This document shows positions 2,036 to 26,723 of a DNA stretch of 35,002 nucleotides, piece after piece (position 1 is the stretch's first letter; every line of letters starts with the position of its first letter). Location: NCBI GenBank assembly GCA_945787105.1, contig CALZGZ010000016.1, positions 1-35,002 on the forward strand, given 5' to 3'. A program made the translations under genes and the position numbers. Origin of the DNA: an uncultured Gammaproteobacteria bacterium. Lineage in GTDB: Bacteria; Pseudomonadota; Gammaproteobacteria; Arenicellales; JAANXG01. The notes beneath the pieces were generated by a model. The model worked only from the letters and a program-made list of their open reading frames with translations. It was not told the origin of the DNA and searched no databases.

Positions 2036-3052
2036 CTACTCCCCGGTAAACGGAATCACCCCTGGAAGCAGCCACTTGTCCCACATCTCATCAATCTTTC
2101 CCTGAAAGTAATCGATGTCTTCTTTGGTGAAATGCGCGAAGCGTCCCTGCCTCAGCAAGTACTCGCTGACCGGTTTGCGCTCCACTCTTCGTTTCGCGAT
2201 GTGCTTGCTCTTTCCATACATCTTCAGCTTGCCTTCTTCCACCTCGTAGAGCGGCCAGATGCCAGTCTCCACTGCGAGTTCGCCGAGTTCATGGGAATAC
2301 TTCGGGTCGTAGTCCCAGCCTTTGGGGCAAGGATCTAGCGAATGGATGAACGTCGGCCCGCCGATGGTCAACGCTCTGCGCACTTTGTTAATCGTATCGA
2401 CCGCGTTCCCGGCAGAAACCGTGGCGACGTATTTACAGTCGGGATGGCCCGCGGCCAACATCGCCGCGGTGTTCTTCTTCCAGCGCTTGTGCATGATCCG
2501 ATGCACCTTGCCCGGGGGGCTGAACGTGGAGTTGGCGCCATACGGCGATAGACCAGACACCTGAATGTCGGTATTGGCGTAGGACTCGTTATCGTACAGG
2601 AAGATCAACAGGTTGTACTGCGTGTGTTGGAGCGCCGCCGAAATTGCCGACAACCCCATATCCGCACCGCCACCGTCGCCGCAAAACGCGATTACGTTGA
2701 TTGGCTCTTTCGTCATTTTGCCCTTGCGCATCAACGCCGTTAATGCGGCTGCAGTACCGGTGGCAGCTGACCCTGAGGACCCAAGCTGCGTATGCATCCA
2801 AGGCACCACCCACGGAGTGGAATAATACGTGGTGTTGGCCACGTACATACAACCCGTGGCGCCAAGGACAATAGTGCGCGGTCCCGCTGCCTTGATCATG
2901 AGACGCATGACTAGGGCCGACTCACAACCCTGACAGGTGCGGTGACCGGATGTGAAATACTCGTCGTGAGCGATCTTTTTGATGCCCTTCCAAGGTTCGA
3001 GAACTTGGGTTTCGAGATAGTCGCCCAGTGCATGTATGTTTATATCTTGCAT
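2036..3052 (-). CDS. Oxalate oxidoreductase-type 2-oxoacid:ferredoxin oxidoreductase, beta (TPP) subunit
   Basis: This is the TPP-binding subunit, 338 aa, of a 2-oxoacid:ferredoxin oxidoreductase. The GDGG motif at residues 125-128 and Asn155 form the Mg-TPP signature. Four cysteines (C40 and C43 in CQGC, C68 and C242) match the ligands of the beta-subunit [4Fe-4S] cluster in pyruvate and oxalate oxidoreductases. The ATG is preceded by GGGAG, and only five bases separate it from the alpha-subunit stop, so the genes should be translationally coupled. It is the last gene of the operon. Family membership is secure. The oxalate assignment rests on the alpha subunit and on the fused gamma/delta partner. 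It would act in the cytoplasm, decarboxylating the substrate on TPP and passing electrons to the iron-sulfur chain. Confidence 0.85.
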   Translation of the reverse strand: MQDINIHALGDYLETQVLEPWKGIKKIAHDEYFTSGHRTCQGCESALVMRLMIKAAGPRTIVLGATGCMYVANTTYYSTPWVVPWMHTQLGSSGSAATGTAAALTALMRKGKMTKEPINVIAFCGDGGGADMGLSAISAALQHTQYNLLIFLYDNESYANTDIQVSGLSPYGANSTFSPPGKVHRIMHKRWKKNTAAMLAAGHPDCKYVATVSAGNAVDTINKVRRALTIGGPTFIHSLDPCPKGWDYDPKYSHELGELAVETGIWPLYEVEEGKLKMYGKSKHIAKRRVERKPVSEYLLRQGRFAHFTKEDIDYFQGKIDEMWDKWLLPGVIPFTGE

Positions 3053-3057
3053 GATTG

Positions 3058-4314
3058 TTACTCCCGCACTCCAATCCAGTAGGTATCTTGATCATCAATG
3101 TCACCACCGTTCGCGGCTGCGAACACGCTATTGGTTATATCGATGACATTGTCGGTGCTCACTTCGCGTCCACCCAGGCCGGCAATGAATGAAACGACTT
3201 TAGGCCGGGTTGCCAAAGGATATAGAGCCGAACGCAGATCGTTGGCCAGCGCGCCGCTGTGGAAGCTGGAACCGAAGCTATAATCACGGTCGATGACACC
3301 CACCGCGTGTACCCCGGACAGTGCCTCCTGCAGCTCGAGAGTGGGAAACGGTCGAAACCACCTCACGCGAAGGAAGCCAACCTTCTTACCCTCCGCCCGC
3401 ATCTTGCGGACGGCAACTTTTACCGGCATCGCAAGGGTTCCCATTCCCACCAAGACGACTTCAGCGTCTTCCATCATGTAGCGCTCGATGAAAGGTTCAC
3501 CGCCGCGTCCAAACTTATCGTTAAAGTCATCGTAGGCTTCGATGATCACTTCTCGCGCACGGCGCGCGGCCATGTCACTCTGCCGGCGGATCTCCATCAC
3601 CCAATCCTCATTCGCCTGCGGGGCGATGGTAACCGGATTGTCCGGGTGCAACTGCTTGTCGCCACGATCGTAAGGCGGTAGGAAATTGTCAACCATCTCC
3701 TGACTGGGTACCTTGACGATCGACTGGGAGTGAGTGAGAAAGGCGCCGTCACAGCTGATCGCGCAGGGCAGGAAAACGCGCGAATCTTCGGCCACACGAT
3801 AGGCGATCAACGCGGTGTCTAACGCCTCTTGTGCGGTCGCCACCCAGGCAAGCATCCAGCCTAAGTCTCGCACCGACAGCGCATCGTTGTGCTCGACCCC
3901 GAATGCGCCCGGATCGTCGAGCGCCCGGTTGCCGACCATCGCCACCATCGGTAGGCGTAGCCCGGCGGTGACTGCCAGCGCCTCGAATGCGTACAACCAA
4001 CCGACACCACTGGAACCGCAAAACACGCGGGCGCCGACTGCCGATGCGTGCTTAACGATCTCGAACTGCGAGTGCTCGCTCTCGGCAACGATGTATTCGC
4101 AATCGAACTCACCGTCGGCGATCATCTGCGATACATACTGCATCACCGTATCGTAGGGACGTATCGGGTATGCGGTGATCACATCGACGTCGGCGAGTTT
4201 GACTGCATGGGAGACCGCTTCGCTGCCGCTGATTAGTTCTTCCGACTCACCGCGCGGCGCGCGTGCAGCCTGAATGTCTACCTTTTTCGCCGTAGCTGTT
4301 CTAGGAGGATTCAT
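3058..4314 (-). CDS. Oxalate oxidoreductase-type alpha subunit
   Basis: This is the substrate-binding alpha subunit, 418 aa from the ATG at 4314. That start has GAGGAG eight bases upstream and is preferred over the ATG at 4332, which has a weaker site. Pyruvate:ferredoxin oxidoreductases have Thr in the YPITP loop; this protein reads YPIRPY with Arg52. Further on, NRALDDPGAF supplies Arg130, Asp133 and Phe138. As I recall the Moorella oxalate oxidoreductase structure, the oxalate-contacting residues are Arg31, Arg109, Asp112 and Phe117 of alpha; all four are present here at a constant offset of 21. Substrate prediction: oxalate, giving two CO2 and two low-potential electrons without CoA. The start overlaps the end of the gamma/delta gene by 14 bases. 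The ~25-residue N-terminal extension before the pyrimidine-binding domain is unusual. Confidence 0.82.
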   Translation of the reverse strand: MNPPRTATAKKVDIQAARAPRGESEELISGSEAVSHAVKLADVDVITAYPIRPYDTVMQYVSQMIADGEFDCEYIVAESEHSQFEIVKHASAVGARVFCGSSGVGWLYAFEALAVTAGLRLPMVAMVGNRALDDPGAFGVEHNDALSVRDLGWMLAWVATAQEALDTALIAYRVAEDSRVFLPCAISCDGAFLTHSQSIVKVPSQEMVDNFLPPYDRGDKQLHPDNPVTIAPQANEDWVMEIRRQSDMAARRAREVIIEAYDDFNDKFGRGGEPFIERYMMEDAEVVLVGMGTLAMPVKVAVRKMRAEGKKVGFLRVRWFRPFPTLELQEALSGVHAVGVIDRDYSFGSSFHSGALANDLRSALYPLATRPKVVSFIAGLGGREVSTDNVIDITNSVFAAANGGDIDDQDTYWIGVRE

Positions 4315-5431
4315 GGGCAATCTCCTCGGCATATTGACCTATGTGGTGAAACCCGTGGGAACGGGCGGGTTGTGCAGAAATTTTTGCAGCCAACCACTCG
4401 GAATAGTTTTCCTTGTCGTTGGTCCACATTTCCCATTGGCTGGCGTTATCGGTGAACGCTTCCTCGTTGACCATAGTGATGCACTGGTCCACCGGACACA
4501 CCGCCTCGCACACCCCACAACCACAACAAGCCTCCATGTTGGCGTCGTAGTGACCATCAGGGGTGACATCAAAGCAGGTGTCGGGACATTGCAGCCAACA
4601 GATCGTGCACTTGGTACAGGTCTCGAAGTTGATCACCGGACGCATGGTGCGCGTTGTATACTTCTTGAAGGTAGGATTGCGCACCGGTACATAGCCACCG
4701 TCCCACCCGGGAACGTCGTGCTGCTTCTCCATGCCGCGAATCACCAGACACTCTTCCATGGTCGTGTAGCCCGGCAGATCAAACTCATAGGGCACCTCGT
4801 CGTTGCCCTGATCCACCGCCACCGGTACTGGCTCCACCATGTCGTAGGCCTTCCTGGCGGAGGCCTGCTTCACGGAATCGTCGATTCCTTCCAGGACGGC
4901 ATCCAGGCTCACAACCTCGGGCGCAACCTTCGCCAGCGCACCCAGTAGGCGAACATCGGTGTGATCGTCCTTGTACACCCACAGCCCGGAAAAGCTGGCC
5001 GTACCTTTGACAACGCCCAGTTCGTATGGCGCTCCCTTGCGATGGATGTCCCGGATCAAACCGTCCGCCAATCGCATCGACGTGACCAACAGTGTTCCAT
5101 TTGGCTTGAGCAATTTATTGATCGGCTGCAACCCGTACCAGGCCCAGGACTCCACACCCTTACACAGGGTGTCGTCCGCACAAATGGTGACGTCGTTGTT
5201 GTCGGGCTCATACCTTGAAAGGTACTCCTCCAACTCTTCTTCGGTATCCGACACTACAGCGAATTGCTTCGCGGGGATGCCGTTGCGCTCCGGGGAGTCG
5301 CTATAGCGACCAAAGGCAAGGCCGATTCTCCCTTGTGTTTTGGCAGCAAAAACGATGCCGCGGCAGATATTCTTCGCCAAAGTCTTTTGGAAGATGCCGC
5401 GGTATACAACTTCTACAGATCCGGTGCTCAT
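4301..5431 (-). CDS. Oxalate oxidoreductase-type fused gamma/delta subunit (two [4Fe-4S])
   Basis: This 376-aa protein joins the gamma domain of 2-oxoacid:ferredoxin oxidoreductases (about residues 1-200) to a linker and a two-cluster ferredoxin-like delta domain. C272, C275, C278 and C282 (CxxCxxCxxxCP) form the first cluster motif, and C302, C305, C308 and C312 the second. The same gamma-delta fusion occurs in Moorella oxalate oxidoreductase, whereas archaeal pyruvate enzymes keep the subunits separate. The chosen ATG at 5431 has an excellent GGAGGA seven bases upstream; an in-frame ATG at 5470 has no comparable site. It is the first large gene of the operon (gamma/delta-alpha-beta). The ~40-residue tail after the last cluster is not recognised. 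Its role is electron transfer from the beta-subunit cluster to soluble ferredoxin. Confidence 0.82.
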   Translation of the reverse strand: MSTGSVEVVYRGIFQKTLAKNICRGIVFAAKTQGRIGLAFGRYSDSPERNGIPAKQFAVVSDTEEELEEYLSRYEPDNNDVTICADDTLCKGVESWAWYGLQPINKLLKPNGTLLVTSMRLADGLIRDIHRKGAPYELGVVKGTASFSGLWVYKDDHTDVRLLGALAKVAPEVVSLDAVLEGIDDSVKQASARKAYDMVEPVPVAVDQGNDEVPYEFDLPGYTTMEECLVIRGMEKQHDVPGWDGGYVPVRNPTFKKYTTRTMRPVINFETCTKCTICWLQCPDTCFDVTPDGHYDANMEACCGCGVCEAVCPVDQCITMVNEEAFTDNASQWEMWTNDKENYSEWLAAKISAQPARSHGFHHIGQYAEEIAHESS

Positions 5432-5665: not shown

Positions 5666-7063
5666 TCATCCTGCATCACTCCAGGTAGACTCCTGAAGTA
5701 CCGCCAACATCTCTGCCACCCGGGTGAACTTCTCCCGCGGTTTTCCCGTCGCCTCACCGCTTCGCACTTCTGCGGCATCAATCTTCTGCCAATCAGCATA
5801 GCTCACCACACGCACACCGCGGCCGGCCAACAACGGCTCCAGTCGTTCGGCACCCGGTTTCTTGTTGGCGTCCAGCTTTGGCAAGTCGTCCAGCAATGAT
5901 TGGACTGTGGCTACACTATCGGCCCGATTGGTGCCGATGATCCCGGTCGGTCCGCGCTTTATCCAACCGGCGACATACAAACCGGGAACCACTTCACCCT
6001 CGTCGACGATGCGTCCATCCTGATTGGGGATCACGCCGCGACGATCGTCGAACGGTATCCCTGGAATGGCAACACCCCGGTAACCGATGCTGCGAAACAG
6101 CACACCGCATTTGAGTTCTTCGAACTCGCCGGTCGGGCGTGCCACCTGATGCGACGGTTCCCCTTCCAGTCGATTTTTCACTAACACCACCCGTTCAAGG
6201 CTTCCCTCGCCTTTGAGCTCTACCGGGCTCTTGAGAAAGTGAAGATGACAGCGTCGGCGCCGGATCGGCGGCGGTCGAGCGGCAAACTGTTGTAACACTT
6301 CGTAGCTCTTGATATGGGCCCGGTTCCGCCGGTTGGTGAGTTCCTCGCGGCTCGCTGGATTCAATTCCAGGTCGTGAGGATCAACGACCGGCTCGCAGTC
6401 CGCTAGTTCGCCGAGTTCCCTTAATTCCTGATGGGTAAATTTGGCTTGCGCGGCACCGCGGCGGCCGATCATGTAAATGTCACGAACCCTGCTGTTTGCC
6501 AACACCTCCAAGGCGTGTTGAGCTATGTCCGAATGTTTGAGTTCGTCGACCGTCTTAGCGAGGATTCGGCAGACATCGACAGCAACGTTTCCCTGCCCGA
6601 TGACTACCGCGGTTGTATTAGACAAGTCGAAAGAGAGATCACGGTAATCAGGATGACCGTTGTACCAACCGACGAATTCCGTGGCGGTGTGGCTACCGGC
6701 TAGATGCTCCCCGGGGATGCCAAGTTGCCGATCAGTCTCCGCCCCACACGTGAACACAATAACGTGGTAGCACTCCTTCAACTCCGCGACGCTGGCGTCA
6801 CGCCCAACCGTAACGTTACCCAACAATTGAAACTCCGGCGACTCGGCAATCTGCTGATAGACGCTAATGGCTTGCTTGAGTTTAGGGTGATCCGGGGCAA
6901 CGCCACTGCGGACCAGACCAAACGGTGAAGGAAGACGTTCGTACATATCGACCAGGACTACGGGTTCTGCTCTGAGCAAGGCTTCGGCGGCGTAGAAACC
7001 ACTGGGCCCGCTACCGACGATCGCGGCGCGCAGTGGATTTTGTTGTGTGCCAAGGTTGCTCAT
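5666..7063 (-). CDS. fprA: Ferredoxin-NADP+ reductase, FprA/adrenodoxin-reductase type
   Basis: This 465-aa flavoprotein exchanges electrons between ferredoxin and NADP(H). The N-terminal FAD dinucleotide fold is seen as VGSGPSGFYAAEAL (from about residue 16), followed by the family's typical YERLPSPFGLVRSGVAPDH. The NADP-binding fold is VVIGQGNVAVD (about residues 152-162), with GRRG further on. WIKRGPTGIIGTNR near residue 365 matches the FAD-closing motif of adrenodoxin reductase-like enzymes. It sits between a ferredoxin gene and the oxidoreductase operon, so the simplest reading is that it recovers electrons from the oxidoreductase as NADPH. The ATG at 7063 is used; the upstream GATGGG is a modest ribosome site. 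The ~65 residues after the FAD domain are an uncharacterised tail. Confidence 0.88.
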   Translation of the reverse strand: MSNLGTQQNPLRAAIVGSGPSGFYAAEALLRAEPVVLVDMYERLPSPFGLVRSGVAPDHPKLKQAISVYQQIAESPEFQLLGNVTVGRDASVAELKECYHVIVFTCGAETDRQLGIPGEHLAGSHTATEFVGWYNGHPDYRDLSFDLSNTTAVVIGQGNVAVDVCRILAKTVDELKHSDIAQHALEVLANSRVRDIYMIGRRGAAQAKFTHQELRELGELADCEPVVDPHDLELNPASREELTNRRNRAHIKSYEVLQQFAARPPPIRRRRCHLHFLKSPVELKGEGSLERVVLVKNRLEGEPSHQVARPTGEFEELKCGVLFRSIGYRGVAIPGIPFDDRRGVIPNQDGRIVDEGEVVPGLYVAGWIKRGPTGIIGTNRADSVATVQSLLDDLPKLDANKKPGAERLEPLLAGRGVRVVSYADWQKIDAAEVRSGEATGKPREKFTRVAEMLAVLQESTWSDAG

Positions 7064-7116: not shown

Positions 7117-7425
7117 CTAATCCGCAAAACCCAGTTCTTCCTTCCGTTCCTCCGCACCCGGATAGGGATCTTGCTTGTCGCGAACCACCGGCAACCCGGG
7201 CGCGCGTTCCTCGTTGATTTCAATCCACTCTTCTTTGTCCTCTGGGATGGGATCTTCGTAAATCGCCTCGACTGGACACAATGGGATGCAGGCGCCGCAA
7301 TCAATACATACTTCATTGTCGATATAGAGCATCTCATCATCGCCATGAAAACAGGCCACTGGACATACCGTGACACAGTCGGTAAAACGGCAACGTTTAC
7401 AATTATCGGTTACGATGGTTGTCAT
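7117..7425 (-). CDS. fdxA: 7Fe (3Fe-4S/4Fe-4S) ferredoxin
   Basis: This is a 102-aa bacterial ferredoxin of the FdxA type. The N terminus reads MTTIVTDNCKRCRFTDCVTVCPVACF, in which C9, C17 and C21 follow the Azotobacter-type 7Fe spacing. It is followed by CIDCGACIPLCP, the normal 4Fe-4S motif. The C-terminal ~45 residues are acidic, as in FdxA. GGGAGGA lies just upstream of the ATG. The reductase gene begins 53 bases after its stop, so the two are probably cotranscribed. It is the likely electron carrier between the oxalate-type oxidoreductase and the reductase, although FdxA proteins have other partners as well. Confidence 0.88.
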   Translation of the reverse strand: MTTIVTDNCKRCRFTDCVTVCPVACFHGDDEMLYIDNEVCIDCGACIPLCPVEAIYEDPIPEDKEEWIEINEERAPGLPVVRDKQDPYPGAEERKEELGFAD

Positions 7426-7585: not shown

Positions 7586-8473
7586 CTAGTTCACATTAGA
7601 CTCAGTTATGGTTCCGGCAAGTTCGAGGAGCGCCCGGGCACGCTTTACGACCGGAACATCGATGACGTTTCCTTCCAGTGATGTCGAGCCCCTACCTGAG
7701 CGCTCAGCCTGTTCGAACGCGGCCACCACACGCCGTGCGTGTTCGATTTCGGTCGGCGTTGGCGAGAATGCGCGATTGATTGGTGCTACCTGTGCAGGAT
7801 GGATGGCGAATTTTCCTTTGAAGCCACAGCGTTTCGCTGCGGCTACATTCCGCTCTAGGCCGGTTTCATCTTTGAATTTAAAATAAGGCGTATCCAACGC
7901 AAGAATACCGGCGGCCCGTGCCGCAATACACAAAGTGTTCCGCGCGAAAGCCAGCCCCGATTCCGACTCGTCCCCCAAACGCTCAATACCCATATCGTGG
8001 GTAAAATCCTCCGCACCAAAGGCGACCCCGATGATACGCGGACTGGCGGTACAGATTTCATGGCAGTGCACCACGGCCTGTGCAGTCTCGATCCAGGGTA
8101 TCAAGCTGATCTGCCCTGGCGCCATCTGCTGCTTCGATTCCAGGTCCGTGATCAGATCGGAAATTTCATGAATGTCCTGTGCTGTTCGAATCTTGCCTGC
8201 TGAGATACCATCAATCGACGCCCCCACCACCGCCGCAAGGTCCGCTTCGATCAAGCCTGACTGCAACGAATTCACACGCGGAATGACAAGCGCGCCGACT
8301 GCTTTCAGTTTCTGGAGGTGCGACGCGACGACATTGCGGGCGTTTTGCTTTTCCGACTCTGGTACCGAGTCTTCCATATCGGGCACATACGCGTCCGGAT
8401 CGAATCCCATCGCCTTGTCAAGCATATTGGGCTTGTTGCCGGGTATGAACAGCAGACTCCTAAGAATCCTCAC
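7586..8473 (-). CDS. HpcH/HpaI-family CitE-like lyase (malyl-CoA lyase-like)
   Basis: This is a TIM-barrel protein of the CitE/malyl-CoA lyase superfamily, 295 aa. The chosen start is GTG at 8473, preceded by AGAGG six bases upstream; it gives MRILRSLLFIPGNKP, the standard family N terminus. A longer frame to 8506 lacks that support. Family motifs are LLFIPGN, the PDMEDSVP acidic region, IPWIETA and GAEDFTHDMG with the metal-binding Glu/Asp pair. Members cleave or form C-C bonds in citryl-CoA, (S)-malyl-CoA or beta-methylmalyl-CoA. With a SucCD-like CoA ligase in the same cluster, cleavage of malyl-CoA to glyoxylate plus acetyl-CoA, or the reverse, is an attractive inference, but sequence alone does not fix the substrate. 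It lies 112 bases after the stress-protein gene and may be its own unit. Confidence 0.78.
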   Translation of the reverse strand: MRILRSLLFIPGNKPNMLDKAMGFDPDAYVPDMEDSVPESEKQNARNVVASHLQKLKAVGALVIPRVNSLQSGLIEADLAAVVGASIDGISAGKIRTAQDIHEISDLITDLESKQQMAPGQISLIPWIETAQAVVHCHEICTASPRIIGVAFGAEDFTHDMGIERLGDESESGLAFARNTLCIAARAAGILALDTPYFKFKDETGLERNVAAAKRCGFKGKFAIHPAQVAPINRAFSPTPTEIEHARRVVAAFEQAERSGRGSTSLEGNVIDVPVVKRARALLELAGTITESNVN

Positions 8474-8585
8474 GTTTACCTCTGTTAAAACCGATCTAGT
8501 CCACAAGCAACCTCAATAAGATCTGTCAAAATTCACACCGCAAGCAGCGAGATATCATCAACCGGATGCACTTGTTTCAATACAC

Positions 8586-9506: not shown

Positions 9507-11639
9507 TCAGAGTAACCCCGCCGCCCTTGCCCACTGGTACTTCGCGCCCAACACCGCTACCGGCAGCTCTGTCGTATACGGGTAGGCCACTATGCCCCGT
9601 TCGTACAGATACTCCGAAGCCTGTTCAACTTCCACATCGCCCACCAAGGAAGCGACAATGGGCTTATTAATTCCGTTACTGCGTGCTTCCTCGACCACCC
9701 GGGCCGTCAACTCCGCAAACACCATAGGCGGCGTAATAATCGTATGCCAATAGCCCAGAATCAGCGCGTGAATCCGATCGTCCTCCAGGCCAAGCCGGAT
9801 AGTTTTTTCATAGGTGGTCGGCGGCTCACCGCCGGTGATATCGACCGGGTTACCGGAAGCACCGAACGGCGGGATAAATTTCTTAAACGCCTCATCCAGA
9901 TCTTCGGGAAACTTCATCAAAGACAAACTGTTGTCGACGCATGCGTCGGACAACAACACACCGGAACCGCCGGCGCCGGTGATGATCACGATATCCTCGC
10001 CTTTGGGGGTCGGTAATATCGGCAGGCCGCGCGCGAACTGCAACAGGTCATTCAGGCTCTTGGCCCGGATGACACCACTTTGGCGCAGCACGTCGTCATA
10101 GATCTTGTCGTTACCCGCCAGCGCCCCGGTGTGCGACGCGGCAGCGCGCGCACCCAGTTGCGTGCGGCCGGCTTTGAGCATCACTACGGGCTTTTCCTTT
10201 GACACGCGTTTAGCAACCTCGGCAAAGCTGCGGCCGTCTTTTAGATCTTCCGCGTGCATCGCCATCACCTCCGTGTTGTCGTCTTGCTCAAAGTACGTGA
10301 GTAGGTCGTCTTCATCTAAGTCAGACTTGTTGCCCAGCCCGACAATGGCCGATACCCCCATCTTGGTGGACCGGCTGAATCCAATAATCGACATACCGAC
10401 ACCGCCGCTCTGCGAAGACAACGCGACCTTACCCTTAACGTCGTAGGGGGTGCAGAAGGTGGCACACAACTTGGCGGGTGTGTAATAAAACCCATAAATA
10501 TTTGGACCCATGATGCGCACGTTGTGCTTACGCGCAACGGCCAATAATTCATCTTGCAGCCCCTTTTCACCGACCTCGGCGAATCCGGACGGAATCATCA
10601 CCGCCCCGGGAATAGATTTTTGACCGACCTCCTCCATCGCTGACGCGCAGAATTTTGCCGGTACCGCAAACACCGCTAGGTCCACGTCCCCAGGGATGTC
10701 AAGAACACTTTTGTAGACCTTCTTGCCTAGGATCTCATCGGCCTTTGGATTGATGGGGTAAATCTCGCCCGGGAAGCCGCCATTGATGAGATTCTTCATC
10801 ACCGAGTTGCCAATCTTCCCCTCGCCGTCAGAGGCACCAATCACCGCCACCGATCTTGGATTCATGATCGGTTTCATGGCGGCGACAATTTCTTCCCGAC
10901 TCGGCCGATACAGCTCTTGCGGTGGATCGAAATTGACTGATATCAATGCGTCCACAGCCGTCGCACCGTCGGCCCGGGCCATAATCGGATTCAAATCAAC
11001 TTCCTGGATCTGGGGAAAATCGTTCACCAAATTGGAGACATTCACGATGATTGATGCCAGCGCGTTGCGATTGACCGGTTGCGCGCCGCGAACGCCCCTC
11101 AAAACCTCCGCCGCCTGGATGCCATCGAGCATCGATAGCGCATCGCGTTCCGATGCCGGCGCTAATCGGAACGTGACGTCCTTTAGGACTTCCACCAGGA
11201 TCCCGCCGAGACCAAATGCGACTAACTTGCCGAAGCTCTGATCGGTGACTGCGCCGACGATCACTTCTTGAGCTTCGCCGGTCAACATTTGTTGGATCTG
11301 GACGCCGGACACCGAGGCGTCAGGTTTAAATCCACGTGCATTGTTGATAATCGTATCGTATCCGGACCGCACCGCATCCGCATCGGAAACGCCCACCAGC
11401 ACCCCACCGGCCTCGGTCTTGTGCAGGATGTCCGGGGCCACAATCTTCATGACCACTGGAAAGCCAATCTTCTGCGCAATCGTTACCGCCTCCTCCGGCG
11501 CGGTCGCCAGACCTTCCTCGGGTAACGGTATGTGATAAGCATCGCAAACCTGCTTACATTCCGGAGCGGTAAGTGAATCACGGCCCTCGCTCTTGACCTG
11601 CTCCAATACCGCACTGACGTCGTTTCTACGGTATGTCAT
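9507..11639 (-). CDS. ADP-forming acyl-CoA synthetase, fused beta-alpha order
   Basis: This 710-aa protein carries both halves of an NDP-forming acyl-CoA synthetase. An ATP-grasp (beta) domain occupies about residues 1-235, with FPVVMKIVAPDILHKTEAGGV. A CoA-binding Rossmann domain starts near MNPRSVAVIGAS (about residue 260), and succinyl-CoA-synthetase-like domains follow. The ASHTGALAG segment contains the phosphohistidine expected in this family. The order is ATP-grasp first, the reverse of the alpha-beta arrangement in Pat-type proteins. The reaction interconverts acid + CoA + ATP with acyl-CoA + ADP + Pi. The ATG has AAGGAG seven bases upstream and lies 84 bases after frc. In this cluster it could activate the imported acid or recover ATP from a thioester; the substrate is not deducible. 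Confidence 0.85.
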   Translation of the reverse strand: MTYRRNDVSAVLEQVKSEGRDSLTAPECKQVCDAYHIPLPEEGLATAPEEAVTIAQKIGFPVVMKIVAPDILHKTEAGGVLVGVSDADAVRSGYDTIINNARGFKPDASVSGVQIQQMLTGEAQEVIVGAVTDQSFGKLVAFGLGGILVEVLKDVTFRLAPASERDALSMLDGIQAAEVLRGVRGAQPVNRNALASIIVNVSNLVNDFPQIQEVDLNPIMARADGATAVDALISVNFDPPQELYRPSREEIVAAMKPIMNPRSVAVIGASDGEGKIGNSVMKNLINGGFPGEIYPINPKADEILGKKVYKSVLDIPGDVDLAVFAVPAKFCASAMEEVGQKSIPGAVMIPSGFAEVGEKGLQDELLAVARKHNVRIMGPNIYGFYYTPAKLCATFCTPYDVKGKVALSSQSGGVGMSIIGFSRSTKMGVSAIVGLGNKSDLDEDDLLTYFEQDDNTEVMAMHAEDLKDGRSFAEVAKRVSKEKPVVMLKAGRTQLGARAAASHTGALAGNDKIYDDVLRQSGVIRAKSLNDLLQFARGLPILPTPKGEDIVIITGAGGSGVLLSDACVDNSLSLMKFPEDLDEAFKKFIPPFGASGNPVDITGGEPPTTYEKTIRLGLEDDRIHALILGYWHTIITPPMVFAELTARVVEEARSNGINKPIVASLVGDVEVEQASEYLYERGIVAYPYTTELPVAVLGAKYQWARAAGLL

Positions 11640-11723: not shown

Positions 11724-13001
11724 CTAAGCACGTAGCTCATGGTATTCCTCGATCTTGGGCGGCTCCCTGGTAAATGCACCTGAATCATGCAAGTGCTCGA
11801 TGTGTTCGCTGTCGTAACCGAGAATTTCCTGGAGGATGATTGCTGTATGCTCGCCGAGTAACGGCGATCGCTCCACCTCCACCGGCGAATCCGAGAGTTT
11901 GATCGGGCATCCGACATTTTGAAAATCTCCGCGCTCCGGATGCGGCACCTTGACGATCATTTCACGCAACGCAACGTGGGTGTCATGCGCCAGGTCCTTG
12001 GTACTCATAATAGGACCACACGGCACATTGACTTCGTTGAGGATCTCCATCAATTCCCATTTGGTACGGTTACTTGCGAATTCTCCGATAATGCGCCACA
12101 TATCTGTTTGATTCTTGCGCCGCCCCTTGATGTCGATAAAACGCGGATCCTTTGCAAGCTCATCACCGCCAATACGTTTGGCGAGCGGCTGCCATACGTG
12201 TTCCTGCACCACCACGTACAAAAAATCATTTGGACCGCCCGGCTTGCATGGCACGGCATTTCCAAGTTGCCCACCACCAGAATCATTGCCAGCACGCGGT
12301 GTAAAGTCGTCGAATTCCTGGATCGAATACTCCGGCATTGGACCGCGTTCGATGCGTTGATGGTCGCGGAATTTCACCCGGCACAGATTCATCACGCAAT
12401 CCATCATCGCGCATTCCACGAACTGACCTTTGCCAGTACGGTCCCGCTGAATCAGTGCCGCCAGGATCCCTGCCATCAGGTGGATACCGGTGCCCGAATC
12501 ACCGATCTGCGCACCGGTCGCCATCGGCGGACCATCGAACACCCCGGTAGTGCTCATCGACCCACCCATGGCCTGCGCAATATTCTCGTAGGCCTTGAAA
12601 CTCGCGTATGGACCCTCGTTGCCGAAGCCCTTTATCGAGGCCATGACAATCTTGGGATTGATCTCGTGCACGTGTTCCCAGCTAAACCCAAGGCGATCAA
12701 TTACGCCAGGGCCGAAGTTTTCCATCACCACATCACACGACTTGAGCAAATCGCTGAACACCTCTTTACCCATCGGGTTTTTGAGATTAACCGTTATCGA
12801 GCGCTTGTTGCAGTTGAGCATCGTAAAGTACAAGCTGTCTGTATCGGGTATATCTTGTAATTGCTTACGCGTGACATCCCCGGTCGGGGGTTCGAGCTTA
12901 ATGACATCGGCACCGAGAAAAGCCATGAGCTGGCTACAGGTGGGGCCGGCCTGCACATGGGTCATGTCCAGTACCCGGATTCCAGAGAGTGCTTTGTCCA
13001 C
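11724..13001 (-). CDS. frc: Formyl-CoA:oxalate CoA-transferase family (class III, CaiB/BaiF)
   Basis: This 425-aa class III CoA-transferase is closest, by memory, to Frc of Oxalobacter. It begins with GTG at 13001, with AAGGAG six bases upstream, 15 bases after the TPP-enzyme stop. Conserved features include Gln17 in THVQAGP, Arg103 in ENFGPGVIDRLGF, the catalytic Asp168 in GAQIGDSGTG and the glycine-rich loop NDSGGGQLGN. Frc moves CoA from formyl-CoA to oxalate. The position of Oxalobacter Trp48, a residue in the oxalate site, is Gln47 here (GDVTRKQLQD), so acceptor specificity may differ. The immediate TPP-enzyme neighbour would regenerate formyl-CoA, and the formate made here could go to the formate dehydrogenase of the same island. 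Confidence 0.82.
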   Translation of the reverse strand: MDKALSGIRVLDMTHVQAGPTCSQLMAFLGADVIKLEPPTGDVTRKQLQDIPDTDSLYFTMLNCNKRSITVNLKNPMGKEVFSDLLKSCDVVMENFGPGVIDRLGFSWEHVHEINPKIVMASIKGFGNEGPYASFKAYENIAQAMGGSMSTTGVFDGPPMATGAQIGDSGTGIHLMAGILAALIQRDRTGKGQFVECAMMDCVMNLCRVKFRDHQRIERGPMPEYSIQEFDDFTPRAGNDSGGGQLGNAVPCKPGGPNDFLYVVVQEHVWQPLAKRIGGDELAKDPRFIDIKGRRKNQTDMWRIIGEFASNRTKWELMEILNEVNVPCGPIMSTKDLAHDTHVALREMIVKVPHPERGDFQNVGCPIKLSDSPVEVERSPLLGEHTAIILQEILGYDSEHIEHLHDSGAFTREPPKIEEYHELRA

Positions 13002-13016
13002 GACTGTCTCCTTAAG

Positions 13017-14768
13017 TTACTTATACATTGTCTGCGCCTTGGTCCCCGGTGCGTATTCATTGGGGTCAACCCAGATATTGATCACCGCGGATTTCCCGGT
13101 ACCCTGTACCGCCTCGCGCGCCCGCTGCAACGCTGGGGCAATTTCACCGGGCTGTCGGACTTCTTCTCCATAGCCACCGAGCATCTCGGCAAATTTCGAG
13201 AACGGCACATCACCCAAAAGATTACCGACATCGCCGCGTTGTGTGCCGTACTTAGTAATCTGCCCGTAACGGATCTGATTCATGGCCGAGTTGTTGCCAA
13301 TCACCGCAATGTACGGGGCGCCGAACCGGTTGGCGGTCTCCATGTCAAATGCGGTCATCCCGAACGAGCCGTCACCGTAGTAACACAACACTTCTTTGTT
13401 CGGGTGCACGAGCTTTGAGGCCATCGCAAACCCAGTGCCAACACCGAGCGATCCCAATGCCCCGGGGTCCATCCAGTTCCCCGGTGCCCGCGGTTGTACC
13501 GCTTGGGCGCTGATGGTAACCACATCGCCGCCGTCACCGATGTAGATCGTATCTTCGGTAAGGAATTCGTTGAGTTCCCAAGCGACTCGATACGGATGGA
13601 TCGGCTCGCTGTCCGACTGGAAAAGCGGCATTAATTTCTCGGTCTTCTGTGCCTCCAGGGCACGTAGTTCCTCCAGCCATGCTTCGCGTTTTGTCGCACC
13701 GTTATCGCCGCTTGCGGTCGTGGCATCATGGACCGCTTTCAGGATCGCCCCCGGATCACCGACCAGACCCAAGGATACGTCGCGGTTTTTGCCCACCGTA
13801 CGGTAATCGAGATCGATCTGCACCACCGTAGCATCGGCCCGTAGCCGCTTGCCGTATCCCATGCGGAAATCAAAGGGTGTCCCGACAATGACAATCACAT
13901 CCGCTTTGTTAAACGCATCCCGTCGCGTGCGGTGATAGTGGTGGGGATCGCCCGGCGGCAAGATGCCACGTCCGGCGCCATTGAAGTAGGCGGGAATGTT
14001 CAAACTGCGTACCAAATCAATCGCCTCTTGGTGACCGCGGCTGGCCCATACCTGGGAGCCCAGTAAGATCGCGGGTCGCTCGGATTTCACCAGCAGTTCC
14101 GCCAACGTGGCGACATTAGCCGGATCCCCTATGGACTTGGTAGACGCCCGATAGGAACCGGCCTCGGGGATCATCGCTTTCTCGAATTCGATTTCGCGGT
14201 CGAGTATGTCACGTGGGATTTCCAGATACGCGGGGCCGGGCGCACCGGCAAAACACTCCCGCGCCGCCATCGAGATCATGTCGGCGACTCTTTCAGTTGA
14301 TCGCACACTCGCCGCAAACTTGGTGATCGGCGACAGGATGTTTACGTGAGGCAGATCCTGTAGCGAACCCATCTTGTGTTGAGTGAGCGCACCTTGGCCC
14401 CCAATGTGCAGCACCGGGCTTTCCGACCGGAACGCGGTGGCGACGCCGGTGATGGCATTGGTGCAACCCGGACCAGCGGTGGTAACGACGCAGCCGAGCC
14501 TTCCAGTCTGCCGCGCGTAGCCATCCGCGGCGTGTGCGGCGGTTTGCTCATGGCGCACATCGACAATGCGGATATCCTCATCGACACAACCATCATAGAT
14601 GTCAATAATGTGGCCGCCACAAAGTGTGAATATGGTATCGATGCCTTCGTTTTTTAGCGCCTTGGCAACCAGATGGCCGCCGGATATCACATCACCTGCC
14701 TGACTTTTCTTGGCAAGCGTGTCAGTCGCCGTATCTGAAACGTTTAAGTCTCTTGCTCGTGTCGACAT
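13017..14768 (-). CDS. TPP-dependent 2-hydroxyacyl-CoA lyase / oxalyl-CoA decarboxylase-like enzyme
   Basis: This 583-aa enzyme has the acetolactate synthase/oxalyl-CoA decarboxylase three-domain fold. Glu74 in RHEQ is the TPP-activating residue. GDGS...NN in the C-terminal third is the Mg-TPP motif. The C terminus, PGTKAQTMYK, aligns with the short CoA-covering tail of oxalyl-CoA decarboxylase and HACL1. The Oxalobacter decarboxylase active-site pair Tyr120-Glu121 is Leu136-Gln137 here, in MGSLQDLP, which is more like HACL1 MGAFQEFP. The Tyr of NNGGIYKG is also replaced (NNSAMNQIRYG). So cleavage of a 2-hydroxyacyl-CoA to formyl-CoA plus aldehyde or ketone is at least as likely as oxalyl-CoA decarboxylation. 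Both give formyl-CoA for the adjacent transferase. The ATG has AGGAG eight bases upstream. It lies 61 bases after gntR, probably in the same operon. The first ~25 residues are an extension. Confidence 0.75.
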   Translation of the reverse strand: MSTRARDLNVSDTATDTLAKKSQAGDVISGGHLVAKALKNEGIDTIFTLCGGHIIDIYDGCVDEDIRIVDVRHEQTAAHAADGYARQTGRLGCVVTTAGPGCTNAITGVATAFRSESPVLHIGGQGALTQHKMGSLQDLPHVNILSPITKFAASVRSTERVADMISMAARECFAGAPGPAYLEIPRDILDREIEFEKAMIPEAGSYRASTKSIGDPANVATLAELLVKSERPAILLGSQVWASRGHQEAIDLVRSLNIPAYFNGAGRGILPPGDPHHYHRTRRDAFNKADVIVIVGTPFDFRMGYGKRLRADATVVQIDLDYRTVGKNRDVSLGLVGDPGAILKAVHDATTASGDNGATKREAWLEELRALEAQKTEKLMPLFQSDSEPIHPYRVAWELNEFLTEDTIYIGDGGDVVTISAQAVQPRAPGNWMDPGALGSLGVGTGFAMASKLVHPNKEVLCYYGDGSFGMTAFDMETANRFGAPYIAVIGNNSAMNQIRYGQITKYGTQRGDVGNLLGDVPFSKFAEMLGGYGEEVRQPGEIAPALQRAREAVQGTGKSAVINIWVDPNEYAPGTKAQTMYK

Positions 14769-14829: not shown

Positions 14830-15522
14830 TCATTCCAGATAATCAGCATATTCCTTGACGTGCTCTGCCAGATTCAAAGCATGTTCACGCACCAGCCGCT
14901 CCGCTACATCGGTGTTTCGGTTCTCCAAAGCTTCGATGATACGCATATGGTCAATAATTGATTGAGAGACCCGATTACGTTCTTTAATTGATTGCGAGCG
15001 TATGGATCGCATGTGCATAAATAAACCATCCCCAATCTCTATCAGCAACTCGCACTTGCTTAACTTCATAATCGCCTGATGAAATTTAATATTGGTCTCA
15101 GAATATTCATCGATCTGCGCCCCAGTCTCATCGGAATCATCAAAGGTAGCGAATAACTTACGCAAACTTGCCAGTTCCTTATCCGTGGCATGTCTTGTCG
15201 CCAAGCGCGCCGCCATGCCTTCCAGGGCGGCCCAAACGCAAATCATCTCGAGGATTTCTCTTTTGGATTTACGCACCACAAACGCGCCCCGGCGTGGAAT
15301 GGTCTGCACCAGCCCCTCCTGTTCCAAACGCGATATTGCTTCGCGGACCGGTGTGCGACTGACGCCAAGCTCTTCCGCCAATTTGCGTTCATCAAGCTTG
15401 GGCGATTCCGCTGCGGAATAGATGTCCATTGAAGTAATCGCTTGTTTCAGCGCGTCATAGACCTTGTCCTTGAGCACGAAGTGGACATCCACCGGCCGCA
15501 CCGGAATCTTCAGATTCGACAT
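14830..15522 (-). CDS. GntR/FCD-family transcriptional regulator
   Basis: This 230-aa regulator has an N-terminal winged helix (about residues 15-85), with DERKLAEELGVSRTPVREAISRLEQEGLV and the PRRGAFV wing typical of GntR proteins. An all-helical FCD ligand-binding domain follows (about residues 95-225), with the conserved KFHQAI and H-x3-A-L motifs. Members usually repress catabolic operons until they bind an organic acid. A perfect 19-bp palindrome overlaps its own promoter, and the same palindrome occurs before tctC and fdhB. I therefore infer autoregulation and control of the transport and formate modules. A GGAGG lies 11 bases before the ATG. It heads the unit containing the TPP enzyme, transferase, acyl-CoA synthetase and stress protein. 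Confidence 0.88.
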   Translation of the reverse strand: MSNLKIPVRPVDVHFVLKDKVYDALKQAITSMDIYSAAESPKLDERKLAEELGVSRTPVREAISRLEQEGLVQTIPRRGAFVVRKSKREILEMICVWAALEGMAARLATRHATDKELASLRKLFATFDDSDETGAQIDEYSETNIKFHQAIMKLSKCELLIEIGDGLFMHMRSIRSQSIKERNRVSQSIIDHMRIIEALENRNTDVAERLVREHALNLAEHVKEYADYLE

Positions 15523-15661: not shown

Positions 15662-17173
15662 TCACGTCGCCGCGCGTGACCAAAATTTGTCTTTCACCAG
15701 CTTCAATATCGGCAACAGGAACAACACCATCGCCGCCGCCATGATCGGCCCGGAGATCGGCCGCTCGAAGAACGTCAAAAAGCTGCCATTGGATATCAAT
15801 AATGCCTGGCGCATAGACGTCTCCGCCAACGGACCTAACACGATCGCCAATACCGCCGGCGCTAAGGGGTACTCGAGCTTACGCATCAGATACCCAACGA
15901 CACCAAAAATCAGGATCAACCATACGTCGTGCATGTCCTGGGTCGGTGCATAACCGCCTACGATGCACAACACGAAAATGATCGGCGCCAGAACCGTGAA
16001 CGGTAGCCGTAGCACCCAGATAAAAGCGGGAATAAAGGCGACGTTGATCAATAGCGAAAAAACATTGGCCACGTACAGACTGGCGATTAAGCCCCAGACA
16101 AATTCCTGGTGTTCGATAAACAGCATTGGCCCGGGCTCGAGTCCCCAGATCACCATACCACCCAACAAGATGGCAGTTGTCGGTGAGCCCGGGATTCCCA
16201 AGGTCAGCATCGGCAGCATCGATCCGGTGCTCGCCGCGTTATTGGCGGACTCGGGTGCCGCGACACCTTCCGGATTGCCTTTACCAAAGGATTCGGGATG
16301 TTTGGATATCGTCTTTGCCACGCCGTAGGCCATCAGCGATCCTGGGGTCGCACCCGCGGCCGGTAGGATACCTACGAAGTATCCGAGAATTGAACCCATG
16401 ACGATAGACTTGAAGGTGTCTTTCAGCGTGCGCAAATCGTCGATGATCCGACGCACCGTCACCGTGGCTTGAGAAATTTTTACATCTCCTTTGCTGCTCT
16501 CAATGGTCCACAGCATTTCGCCGATGCCATAAATGCCGATCGCCAACACCAGGAAATTGATGCCATGCAGAAATCCCGGAATATCGCCGAATACCAAACG
16601 CGGCTGACCACTGATGATATCGAGACCCACCGCGCTGAAAACCAGGCCGATAAATATCGAGAACAGGGTCTTGGGTATGTCGTCCCCACCCAGACCGATA
16701 AATGTGGCGAACGCCAACATCATCAGCGCGAATTCCTCCGCCGCGCCGAATGCCAGGGCTACTGCCGCCAATGGCGGCGCAAACAAGGTAAACAAGATCA
16801 CCGAAATCGTGCCGCCGATAAACGACGCAGTCGCCGCGGTAATCAGTGCTTTGTCGGCCAACCCCTGCAGCGCCATAGGCCGTCCGTCAAACGTAGTGGC
16901 GACCGCAGTGGAGGCGCCTGGAATGCCAAGCATTATTGAGCTGATGGCGCCACCGTACATCGCACCATAGTAGATCGCGGCCAAGAAAATGATCGCACCG
17001 GTGGGCGGGACCAGAAACGTCATCGGTAGCAGGATCGCCACGCCGTTTACCGAACCCAAACCCGGCATGGCGCCGATAAACAGGCCCAACGCACAACCAA
17101 AGATCACCAAACCCAGATTGAGCGGTTGAAATGCAATCGCGAATCCCTGCATAAGGTGATCGAGTATTTCCAT
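15662..17173 (-). CDS. tctA: Tripartite tricarboxylate transporter, large membrane subunit TctA
   Basis: This is a 503-aa multi-pass membrane protein of the TctA family. It has the family signatures IGAMPGLGSVNGVAILLP near the N terminus, YGAMYGGAISSIMLGIPG, and GILPAAGATPGS in the second half, followed by a C-terminal hydrophobic repeat. It forms the translocation channel of a secondary, binding-protein-dependent TTT importer. It is the last gene of tctC-tctB-tctA, nine bases after tctB, with no obvious ribosome site of its own, so translational coupling is likely. Known TTT substrates include citrate, tartrate and aromatic acids; the context suggests oxalate or a small hydroxy acid here, which is inference. 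Confidence 0.93.
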   Translation of the reverse strand: MEILDHLMQGFAIAFQPLNLGLVIFGCALGLFIGAMPGLGSVNGVAILLPMTFLVPPTGAIIFLAAIYYGAMYGGAISSIMLGIPGASTAVATTFDGRPMALQGLADKALITAATASFIGGTISVILFTLFAPPLAAVALAFGAAEEFALMMLAFATFIGLGGDDIPKTLFSIFIGLVFSAVGLDIISGQPRLVFGDIPGFLHGINFLVLAIGIYGIGEMLWTIESSKGDVKISQATVTVRRIIDDLRTLKDTFKSIVMGSILGYFVGILPAAGATPGSLMAYGVAKTISKHPESFGKGNPEGVAAPESANNAASTGSMLPMLTLGIPGSPTTAILLGGMVIWGLEPGPMLFIEHQEFVWGLIASLYVANVFSLLINVAFIPAFIWVLRLPFTVLAPIIFVLCIVGGYAPTQDMHDVWLILIFGVVGYLMRKLEYPLAPAVLAIVLGPLAETSMRQALLISNGSFLTFFERPISGPIMAAAMVLFLLPILKLVKDKFWSRAAT

Positions 17174-17182
17174 CGCGACGTA

Positions 17183-17680
17183 CTAGAAAAAAATGTCGTA
17201 CAAGGGGTAGAAAAGCGGTTCGGTCAGACCTTTGGGTAGCGTAATTTTCAACGAAATCTCGAAGAAGAAAAATGTCACGATCGGTGTCGCTACGGCAATA
17301 ACACCGGTTGGCAACCAGCGATGACCGCCCATGTACCGCATATAGAACAACATGAATAGGGGGATGGAAACGTAGACTCCGACTACGTGGATCAACCCGA
17401 TCATCACCGTCAGCGCACCCGCCACCAGGAAAAACATCCGTAACGTTGCAGCATCCATGTATTGGTCAGCGGAAGCCGACACCGTGCTGCTGCGTCTGAC
17501 CCAACGCACAATGATCCACAGGCAACAGATCAGCATCCCGGCGGCCAACCAAAACGGAAACGCCCCACCGCCTGGTCCCTCGTCGGGAATCCAGCCGATG
17601 GGGAGTTCCGCGCTTTTCCACATCAAGTAGGTCGAGAACAATCCCATCACCACCGCCATCAGCAGTTCGGCTTTGCGCAT
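17183..17680 (-). CDS. tctB: Tripartite tricarboxylate transporter, small membrane subunit TctB
   Basis: This TctB-type protein has four predicted transmembrane segments and is 165 aa from the ATG at 17680 (MRKAELLMAVVMGL). A longer frame begins with TTG at 17710 and would add ten residues; neither start has a strong ribosome site, and ATG is preferred. The conserved WIPDEGPGGGAFPFWLA loop after the first segment is the family signature. It lies about 40 bases after tctC. It is needed with TctA for uptake. Confidence 0.88.
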   Translation of the reverse strand: MRKAELLMAVVMGLFSTYLMWKSAELPIGWIPDEGPGGGAFPFWLAAGMLICCLWIIVRWVRRSSTVSASADQYMDAATLRMFFLVAGALTVMIGLIHVVGVYVSIPLFMLFYMRYMGGHRWLPTGVIAVATPIVTFFFFEISLKITLPKGLTEPLFYPLYDIFF

Positions 17681-17720
17681 GGTGCTCGACCTTGTGTAAT
17701 CGAAGAGCAAAACCTCGCGG

Positions 17721-18698
17721 TTAGATCTCGCCGATATCTTTCAGCATCTTCTGGTGATTGTCTTTCTCTCGCTTCCAGTACGCCTTTAAGTCATCGCCGG
17801 TCAAGAATTCGCCCTGCAGGCTTTTCTTTGTCATATAACCTTGCCATTCCTCGGTTTGGTACACCTTCTTGAAAACATCACGGTAGTAGTCTTCGGCCTC
17901 TTTACTCATGCCCGGCGCACCGACCACGCTGCGCTGCATGAAATATACGAAGTCCTTACCCAACTCGCGAAACGTCGGCGCATCTTTGAACAGCGGTAAT
18001 CGATCGGGGGTAAATGCCGCCAACGGAACCGTGTTCCCGGCTTCATAAAAGCCGAGTTGTTCCGACGGATTGTTAACCGTCGAATTGGCGTGTTTTCCAG
18101 CCAGTTCCTTAGCGACGCGGCCACCGCCCTTGAACGGTACGTATTTCATGTCCAGGCCATAGGCCTTGTTGAGAAAACTAGTAAGCAACTGGTCCTCTTG
18201 ACCCTTGCCGGTCCCTGCCATAATCCATTTGTTACCGGCCGATTTGGCGGCCTTGACGAAATCATTAATGTTGTTGATGCCTGAGTCTTTGTTAACCCAC
18301 AACAAGAACGTGTCTTCAGCCATGCGGCCGATCGGTGTGAAGGTCATGACGTCGACCCCCAAACCGGGCTGACGCAGCGGTGTGGTGTAGAAACTATTCA
18401 AGGTGACCATGATCGTATGGTCGTCGCCGGCTTTTTGCTTGAGATGCACCAGCGCTTCAGCGCCGGAACCGCCGGGTTTGTTGATCGGGATAAACGGTTT
18501 GGATGCAAGCTTGTGCTTTTCGATGACACTCTGCATCAAGCGTGCCATCTTGTCAGCGCCACCGCCCTTCCCCGCCATGATGACGAAATCAACAGGCTTC
18601 TTGGGCTCCCAGCCCGCCAGTGCGATTCCCGAAAAAGCGAATGCAGCCAACGCCGCTACCACAACAGGCGTGACTGCTGTTTTACATAGTGTCTTCAT
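17721..18698 (-). CDS. tctC: Periplasmic solute-binding protein TctC (Bug family)
   Basis: This is the substrate-capturing component, 325 aa from the ATG at 18698, which is preceded by AAGGAGGAG. A longer frame to 18797 adds 33 residues without signal-like character and is rejected. The signal peptide is MKTLCK followed by a hydrophobic core, with likely cleavage after ALA near residue 28. The mature protein has the Bug fold motifs: INKPGGSGAEAL, the phosphate-like loop region, and the YVPFKGGGRVAKELAG strand that lines the ligand site. The family binds carboxylates through main-chain atoms and ordered water, so the ligand cannot be read off the sequence. It heads the transporter operon, which has a GntR operator about 115 bases upstream. 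Confidence 0.9.
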   Translation of the reverse strand: MKTLCKTAVTPVVVAALAAFAFSGIALAGWEPKKPVDFVIMAGKGGGADKMARLMQSVIEKHKLASKPFIPINKPGGSGAEALVHLKQKAGDDHTIMVTLNSFYTTPLRQPGLGVDVMTFTPIGRMAEDTFLLWVNKDSGINNINDFVKAAKSAGNKWIMAGTGKGQEDQLLTSFLNKAYGLDMKYVPFKGGGRVAKELAGKHANSTVNNPSEQLGFYEAGNTVPLAAFTPDRLPLFKDAPTFRELGKDFVYFMQRSVVGAPGMSKEAEDYYRDVFKKVYQTEEWQGYMTKKSLQGEFLTGDDLKAYWKREKDNHQKMLKDIGEI

Positions 18699-18812
18699 TG
18701 TTCTCCTCCTTAGGGTATTGTCAGTAACCCGGCACATTGTTTCCGGATTAGGTGTGCCCCCGCACCCGATTCGAGGTGCAACAGCGGGGAATATCAAATA
18801 TCTTTCATTAGC

Positions 18813-19794: not shown

Positions 19795-19831
19795 TATGTC
19801 TTCACCTCAAAATCACGTCGTCCAATCATGC

Positions 19832-26663: not shown

Positions 26664-26685
26664 CCAGGCTCCGGTGCGCTTAAAC

Positions 26686-26723
26686 TTCTGGTATACATTA
26701 TACAAGAAACACGGCGCATGCAA
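26686..26723 (-). promoter_or_regulatory. fdhBA promoter with GntR-type operator
   Basis: CTGGTATACATTATACAAG at 26688-26706 is a third copy of the palindrome with one arm mismatch; flanking TT and AA extend the symmetry. On the minus strand a perfect -10, TATAAT (26697-26702), lies inside the operator, and TTGCAT (26718-26723) is 15 bp upstream. The start codon at 26663 is about 25 bases from the operator edge. Confidence 0.75.

Follow-up and report, generated by a model that had tools for sequence, protein, structure and literature searches.

Does an uncultured gammaproteobacterium possess the enzyme by which one anaerobic acetogen, Moorella thermoacetica, burns oxalate? The question is raised by a stretch of 35,002 nucleotides (positions 1-35,002 of contig CALZGZ010000016.1; hereafter the window), on whose minus strand, at 2036-5431, a first-pass annotation had seen genes for an oxalate:ferredoxin oxidoreductase (OOR). 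With a probability of roughly two in three, we take the encoded enzyme to be an OOR that uses thiamine pyrophosphate (TPP) and three [4Fe-4S] clusters and belongs to a new clade sister to the Moorella enzyme. The clade probably works like OOR while being distinct from the characterised one. Of the annotated identity, the grouping with Moorella OOR stood and the neighbouring genes favour oxalate; the sister position, a rebuilt switch loop and family scores below cut-off qualify it.

The three genes encode, in the order gamma-delta, alpha, beta, a three-subunit 2-oxoacid:ferredoxin oxidoreductase with gamma and delta fused, as had been annotated; alternative starts lie at 5470 (TTG, gamma-delta) and 4332 (alpha). 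Moorella OOR (5c4i) was the best PDB sequence match of every subunit: 1.8e-100 for alpha (next, pyruvate:ferredoxin oxidoreductase (PFOR) 9bt4, 5e-71), 5e-89 for beta (next match 5e-61) and 3.5e-24 over residues 19-339 for gamma-delta (5c4i_B). The alpha subunit is 44% identical to its Moorella counterpart. By Pfam, alpha contains POR_N and PFOR_II, beta contains TPP_enzyme_C and gamma-delta has a 4Fe-4S dicluster domain, and OOR was the top NCBIfam family for all three. The enzyme shares with Moorella OOR (5c4i, 5exd, 5exe) the three subunits, the fusion, the TPP domains and the cluster cysteines, that is, an alpha/beta TPP core joined to a gamma-delta chain with two [4Fe-4S] clusters; its gamma-delta C-terminus is about 50 residues longer. 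A structural model of alpha (mean predicted local distance difference test score, pLDDT, 78.9) had OOR as first match by E-value. For the gamma-delta model (74.6; predicted TM-score 0.55), the first 8 fold matches were all OOR chains, with low global TM-scores.

The residue pattern agrees with this likeness. The arginine of the YPIRPY motif (R52 in the first-pass numbering, R58 counted from the upstream ATG) aligns with Moorella Arg31, and R130/R136, D133/D139 and F138/F144 align with Arg109, Asp112 and Phe117, all at a single constant offset, as had been claimed. Asp112 and Phe117 presumably have functional roles in Moorella OOR. An excerpt of PMC5020499 describes the YPIRP motif with Arg31 as unique, and Arg31 and Asp116 as important in the bait-and-switch mechanism of OOR; the window alpha has the YPIRP arginine and Arg109. 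The switch loops differ (window RALDDPGAFGVEH, Moorella RTLDPPGDFGEEH) and define two types, an Ala-type clade with RALDDPGAFG and the Moorella-type, or Asp-type, with RTLDPPGDFG.

How general this pattern is was read from a scan of genome contigs. At least 334 relatives were confirmed, and the 80 best of them, all records of metagenome-assembled genomes, were kept; with the window they make 81 loci, whose alpha cluster holds 83 proteins. Genes in these loci were called by codon usage, which recovered alpha in all 81, gamma-delta in 77 and beta in 76; of the nine misses, seven fall where a locus ends, and gaps in the gene calling account for the other two (L111, L117). Arg31, Arg109, Asp112 and Phe117 are all kept in 82 of the 83 alpha-cluster proteins, so that the match with OOR is not a matter of chance; the lone exception is a YPITP paralogue (L116, 12658-13731). 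Ala at 116 with Asp at 113 was found in 81 of 83, the others being the Asp-type alpha of L095 (8875-10086) and that L116 paralogue. Because the patterns of the scan partly select the loop, the count was checked on loci from a whole-protein search. Among its 35 YPIRPY loci, some of which are the same places as L045-L124 and hence not all independent, 31 were Ala-type, 4 Asp-type and none intermediate. Two Chloroflexota loci (L163, L168) have the Ala-type loop and lack the exact YPI motif; L174 (with RAVDDPGAFG), L175 and L178 are Ala-type, and L172 and L173 are Asp-type.

Phylogeny placed the two types side by side. A careful maximum-likelihood tree of alpha was built from 71 rows (40 Ala-type, 7 Asp-type including Moorella, 24 others); compared with an earlier 90-row quick tree, with which it agrees, 12 long-branch rows (the L116 paralogue among them) and 10 near-duplicates were removed and L172-L174 added. 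Ala-type and Asp-type rows together form one group (support 100/99) apart from the 24 others, and each forms a group of its own (100/99). The beta tree, from which six near-duplicate loci were left out, gave the same picture (30 Ala-type, 100/99; 5 Asp-type, 100/99; 27 others, 98/95). A long-branch warning applies to the trees, and the Moorella alpha is among the flagged rows. By these trees the Ala-type clade is sister to Moorella-type OOR and outside the PFOR-type enzymes sampled. The phylogenetic check proposed with the annotation, placement of the enzyme within a PFOR/KOR clade, did not refute it, on trees without named rows for 2-oxoglutarate (KOR), 2-oxoisovalerate (VOR) or indolepyruvate (IOR) oxidoreductases.

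Which substrate the clade uses is suggested by its neighbours. Counts were restricted to the 61 of 81 loci that extend 3.5 kb or farther past alpha on the downstream side, a requirement that excludes the window itself; taxon labels were assigned manually on the basis of record titles. Of the usable loci, 14 of 15 in Acidobacteriota have an antiporter of the oxalate/formate antiporter (OFA) family, resembling OxlT, within 6 kb, and 11 of 11 in Rokubacteria have tripartite carboxylate transporter (Tct) genes within that distance; one or the other is present in 32 of the 61. Beyond this set, OFA was found at Ala-type L183 and Tct at Ala-type L174 (Chloroflexota). The antiporter beside the Ala-type set of L091 scored 480 bits with the oxalate/formate antiporter model (cut-off 335), and its best structure was OxlT (223 bits, with a lactate transporter at 139). 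In 18 such antiporters, Arg272 is kept in 16/16 and Lys355 in 15/15 readable sequences, and Gln34, Tyr35 and Tyr124 in 17/17. In Acidobacteriota and Chloroflexota, the Asp-type enzymes (L095, L170, L172, L173) have the arginines of the window enzyme and differ from it in the RTLDPPGDFG loop. At L170 such an enzyme shares one region with a GntR regulator and with an OFA antiporter that scored 454 bits and is set off from the rest by one opposite-strand gene; the region also holds a ligase for which oxalyl-CoA synthetase and oxalate-CoA ligase were the top structure matches. The L170 antiporter is 79% identical to the one beside Ala-type L112. The Acidobacteriota Asp-type loci L095, L171 and L181 end short of the expected antiporter position. 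Together with the formyl-CoA:oxalate CoA-transferase family gene (frc) of the window, the OxlT-like antiporter favours oxalate without proving it.

A number of observations weigh against this assignment. Moorella Asp116 is Ala143 in the window alpha, and Pro113 is Asp140, changes that the first-pass annotation had overlooked; the switch-loop acid to which the PMC5020499 excerpt gives a mechanistic part is absent from 116, and an Asp stands at 113. Glu119 and Thr122 are likewise replaced, by Val and Asn. All three subunits fall below the NCBIfam OOR equivalog cut-offs NF045790/91/92 (398/500, 351/590 and 95/230 bits, the last for gamma-delta against the delta model NF045790), and PorA_Arch follows closely on alpha with 367 bits. 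These cut-offs are narrow: the Asp-type enzyme of L095 passes on alpha alone (580/500; 442/590; 179/230). The L172 alpha passes too (579 bits). The structural comparison, led by OOR in E-value, gave equal TM-scores of 0.85 for OOR and PFOR 9bt4. Among the neighbours, neither OFA nor Tct lies within 6 kb in any of the 22 usable Chloroflexota loci, and neither occurs at Ala-type L175 or L178 (the latter with about 3.5 kb of downstream sequence) or at Asp-type L172 or L173; Tct is not specific for oxalate. With the lactate-transporter model, too, the L091 antiporter scores narrowly above the cut-off (334 vs 320 bits). Several antiporter positions depart from OxlT: Gln63 is Ile or Val, Trp352 is Tyr in 15/15, Tyr150 is Phe in 11/16 and Tyr328 is Phe in 10/15. 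An excerpt of PMC10070484 links changes of Tyr150 or Trp352 to lost transport, treats OFA members other than OxlT as uncharacterised, and reports that Arg272 and Lys355 bind oxalate yet are conserved across the whole family, so that their retention is no proof of oxalate. Finally, the FprA reductase cluster described below accompanies the enzyme in just 6 of 81 loci, all proteobacterial; L048, L049, L051 and L054 show neither FprA nor FdxA, with L049 and L054 beginning near gamma-delta.

The chief rival, which we hold to be unlikely, is that the clade's substrate has become a different small 2-oxoacid: glyoxylate, which with coenzyme A (CoA) would yield formyl-CoA, or mesoxalate, which would yield oxalate or oxalyl-CoA. 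Without the acid at 116, whose loss is clade-wide like the change of Pro113 to Asp, there would be room for such a substrate, and formyl-CoA would feed the neighbouring frc. A flavin mononucleotide (FMN)-dependent alpha-hydroxyacid oxidase or dehydrogenase related to glycolate oxidase/HAO1, whose product would be a 2-oxoacid, lies within 6 kb in 20 of 22 usable Chloroflexota loci; this neighbour fits oxalate too, because glycolate-oxidase-type enzymes also turn glyoxylate into oxalate. The two subtypes on L095, an Ala-type set followed by an Asp-type set, could mean different substrates, and the antiporter binding residues are only partly OxlT-like. Retention of Arg31 argues for oxalate, as do frc and the OFA antiporter, which has OxlT as its top structure match, and Asp-type L170 sits in a similar setting.

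Much harder to sustain is an ordinary PFOR or 2-oxoglutarate:ferredoxin oxidoreductase with an OOR-like motif acquired by chance, despite the PorA_Arch score and a fold that is the same as in PFOR. Both alpha and beta fall with Moorella OOR in trees that set them apart from 24 (alpha) and 27 (beta) other rows, and on this ground a PFOR/KOR identity was rejected within the sampling of those trees. The window alpha has neither a YPITP-type motif nor a place with PorA, and its own genome has separate YPITP- and YPV-type paralogues. Methanosarcina PFOR (9bt4), a CoA-dependent enzyme, has fold and cofactors in common with the window enzyme and differs in its YPITP motif, its separate gamma and delta chains and its place outside the clade. 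Operation in reverse, with two CO2 fixed into oxalate, is scarcely credible: reversibility is common in the superfamily, but the neighbours belong to uptake and degradation families and the reaction would be strongly uphill for a respiring cell.

If the enzyme is an OOR, oxalate would be oxidised to two CO2, presumably without CoA, and in Proteobacteria the electrons would pass to FdxA and then through FprA to NADPH; the switch acid would have been relocated, with Asp at 113 serving in place of Asp116. As the switch loop (131-141) has pLDDT below 50 in the alpha model, we make no structural claim for Asp113. The electron route is suggested by FdxA and FprA standing upstream of gamma-delta in the window, FdxA being the likely carrier. 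The order FdxA-FprA-gamma/delta-alpha-beta recurs in genome G003 (L176) and at L047/L184 and L050/L185, L047 and L184 being one place and L050 and L185 another; FdxA-FprA lies just downstream of beta in L052 and L055, and FprA at the contig end in L045. In G003 one contig carries everything from a quinone-oxidoreductase gene through OOR beta, and in G005 the island and FprA-OOR fall on two separate contigs, the second of them short; the gene run is therefore no assembly accident of the window alone. The formate dehydrogenase, ferredoxin and ferredoxin-NADP reductase named in the annotation were recovered as families (Table 1). A broader proposal, that the clade is a second oxalate-oxidising branch with its switch acid three residues along and forms a widespread, ferredoxin- or NADPH-yielding oxalate sink in respiring bacteria, most of them represented only by metagenomes, that replaces the frc/oxc route sought by oxalotrophy surveys, is tentative and in our estimate falls somewhat short of even odds.

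The CoA-dependent frc/oxc route shares frc with the window. Just one of the 18 carrier handles, which represent 17 distinct genomes (G017 and G341 show the same coordinates), has an oxalyl-CoA decarboxylase (oxc) scoring above the TIGR03254 cut-off; the nearest miss was G336 (537/739 bits). The window gene at 13017-14768 was rejected as an oxalyl-CoA decarboxylase (221/739 bits), and at the stretches of Tyr120, Glu121 and Ser553, residues listed in an excerpt of PMC10192776, it differs from the enzyme of G339. In its own right, the set at 11724-14768 and 22205-26723 (frc, a 2-hydroxyacyl-CoA lyase-like enzyme and formate dehydrogenase, no typical oxalyl-CoA decarboxylase) could serve a formyl-CoA-recycling alpha-oxidation of 2-hydroxyacids.

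Table 1. Genes and sites in the window.
Feature	Position	Strand	Basis
ORF (open reading frame) of 547 codons	42-1685	+	
Beta subunit with TPP domain and four proximal-[4Fe-4S] cysteines	2036-3052	-	NCBIfam, Pfam, PDB match, tree
Alpha subunit, POR_N + PFOR_II, 418 amino acids	3058-4314	-	NCBIfam, Pfam, PDB match, tree, model
Switch loop RALDDPGAF, alpha residues 136-144	3901-3927	-	alignment
Arg58 codon (Moorella Arg31) within YPIRPY	4159-4161	-	alignment
Gamma-delta fusion subunit, domain III + two-[4Fe-4S] ferredoxin domain V, 376 amino acids from ATG	4301-5431	-	NF045790, 5c4i_B
FprA/adrenodoxin-reductase-type NADPH:ferredoxin reductase	5666-7063	-	best PDB FprA 1lqt, 394 bits
FdxA-type ferredoxin	7117-7425	-	NF045490 107 bits, cut-off 135
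CitE/HpcH-type lyase, putative C2-island role	7586-8506	-	NCBIfam + Pfam
ADP-forming acyl-CoA ligase-like, putative C2-island role	9507-11639	-	NCBIfam
Formyl-CoA:oxalate CoA-transferase family (frc)	11724-13001	-	TIGR03253 585 bits, cut-off 504; best PDB YfdW
2-Hydroxyacyl-CoA lyase-like TPP enzyme, no typical oxalyl-CoA decarboxylase	13017-14768	-	TIGR03254 221 bits, cut-off 739
GntR/FCD regulator	14830-15522	-	Pfam
Tripartite carboxylate transporter TctABC, candidate for oxalate uptake	15662-18797	-	Pfam
SucD/SucC-like acid-CoA ligase, putative C2-island role	18916-21079	-	family match
FdhA of NAD-type formate dehydrogenase	22205-24958	-	family match
NuoEF-like FdhB of NAD-type formate dehydrogenase	24951-26723	-	family match
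Metallo-beta-lactamase-fold hydrolase	27368-28318	+	below all NCBIfam cut-offs

The gammaproteobacterial setting holds for the genome in hand, and the clade reaches far wider. A match was present in 16 of 60 gammaproteobacterial genomes (own and near relatives). The OOR-type is confined among these to the own genome, G003 and G005 (94-96%) and G017 (91%), all other matches being at most 37% identical; in a class-wide sample of 274 the OOR-type occurs in the own genome only, other matches reaching at most 42%. For Alphaproteobacteria the count was 2 of 289 genomes, one being the centre genome. Acidobacteriota gave matches in 17 of 297 genomes (Ala-type 9, Asp-type 4, one with both; 5 YPITP enzymes) and Chloroflexota in 19 of 301, with 17 at 54-72% identity (Ala-type in all 11 whose loop was read) and 2 Asp-type. 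In the Rokubacteria/Methylomirabilota phylum, counted by identity alone and not by loop, matches occurred in 54 of 95 genomes (49 at 64-70%, 6 at 43-46%, one with both). The clade is thus not mainly gammaproteobacterial and is found in SAR202-type Chloroflexota, Acidobacteriota, Rokubacteria and some Proteobacteria, where its patchy presence suggests horizontal transfer. Moorella-type-loop enzymes are present in Acidobacteriota and Chloroflexota as well. Plasmid carriage was rejected: 13 plasmid records had matches, at 24-36% identity only, and 2 matched an Asp-type query at 34-35%.

In a further difference from Moorella OOR, the carriers examined have PF00115 haem-copper-oxidase-family genes, over cut-off in 18 of 18 carrier handles. 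An aerobic life is what we infer for them, since this family also includes nitric oxide reductases. Oxalate turnover is usually tracked by oxc, frc, oxdC and oxlT, the four genes of an oxalotrophy survey (PMC10192776, excerpt) that alludes to acetogens and in whose main text the word 'oxidoreductase' is absent. Were the OOR assignment true, such tracking would miss a ferredoxin-linked oxalate enzyme in SAR202, Rokubacteria and Acidobacteriota, respiring cells would gain low-potential electrons from oxalate, and the moved Asp would be a natural test of the bait-and-switch mechanism. No description of the Ala-type clade was found in the open-licence PMC literature, a search that leaves subscription papers and preprint servers aside. 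For the Elbe estuary, an excerpt of PMC13098242 counts 'oorAB', for which it cites Moorella, as a particle-associated indicator gene; the name may stand for this clade or for the 2-oxoglutarate OorAB.

Some smaller observations were made along the way. In the window, a promoter/terminator scan gave fewer sites than in shuffles, a tRNA search found none and an Rfam search found nothing at the gathering threshold. The far contig end carries an acetyl-CoA synthetase (28375-30312, over cut-off) and a sodium:solute symporter-type permease (33195-34967, below cut-off). In L170 (3643-17665) and L095 (6364-11261), a short delta is followed by a GltD-like NAD(P)-binding flavoprotein placed between delta and alpha, which suggests that these Asp-type enzymes are pyridine-nucleotide-linked. 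At L057, L059, L060, L062 and other Chloroflexota loci, a glycolate-oxidase-type FMN enzyme follows the OOR-like genes, with a glycine-oxidase-like DAO and TenA nearby; a chain from glycine or glycolate through glyoxylate and oxalate to CO2 is possible in SAR202-type bacteria. In the Rokubacteria loci L085, L096, L101, L109, L111, L114, L117 and L123, a PdxR-like regulator with PdxS and/or PdxT lies upstream of the OOR-like genes, and several of them carry pyruvate phosphate dikinase downstream.

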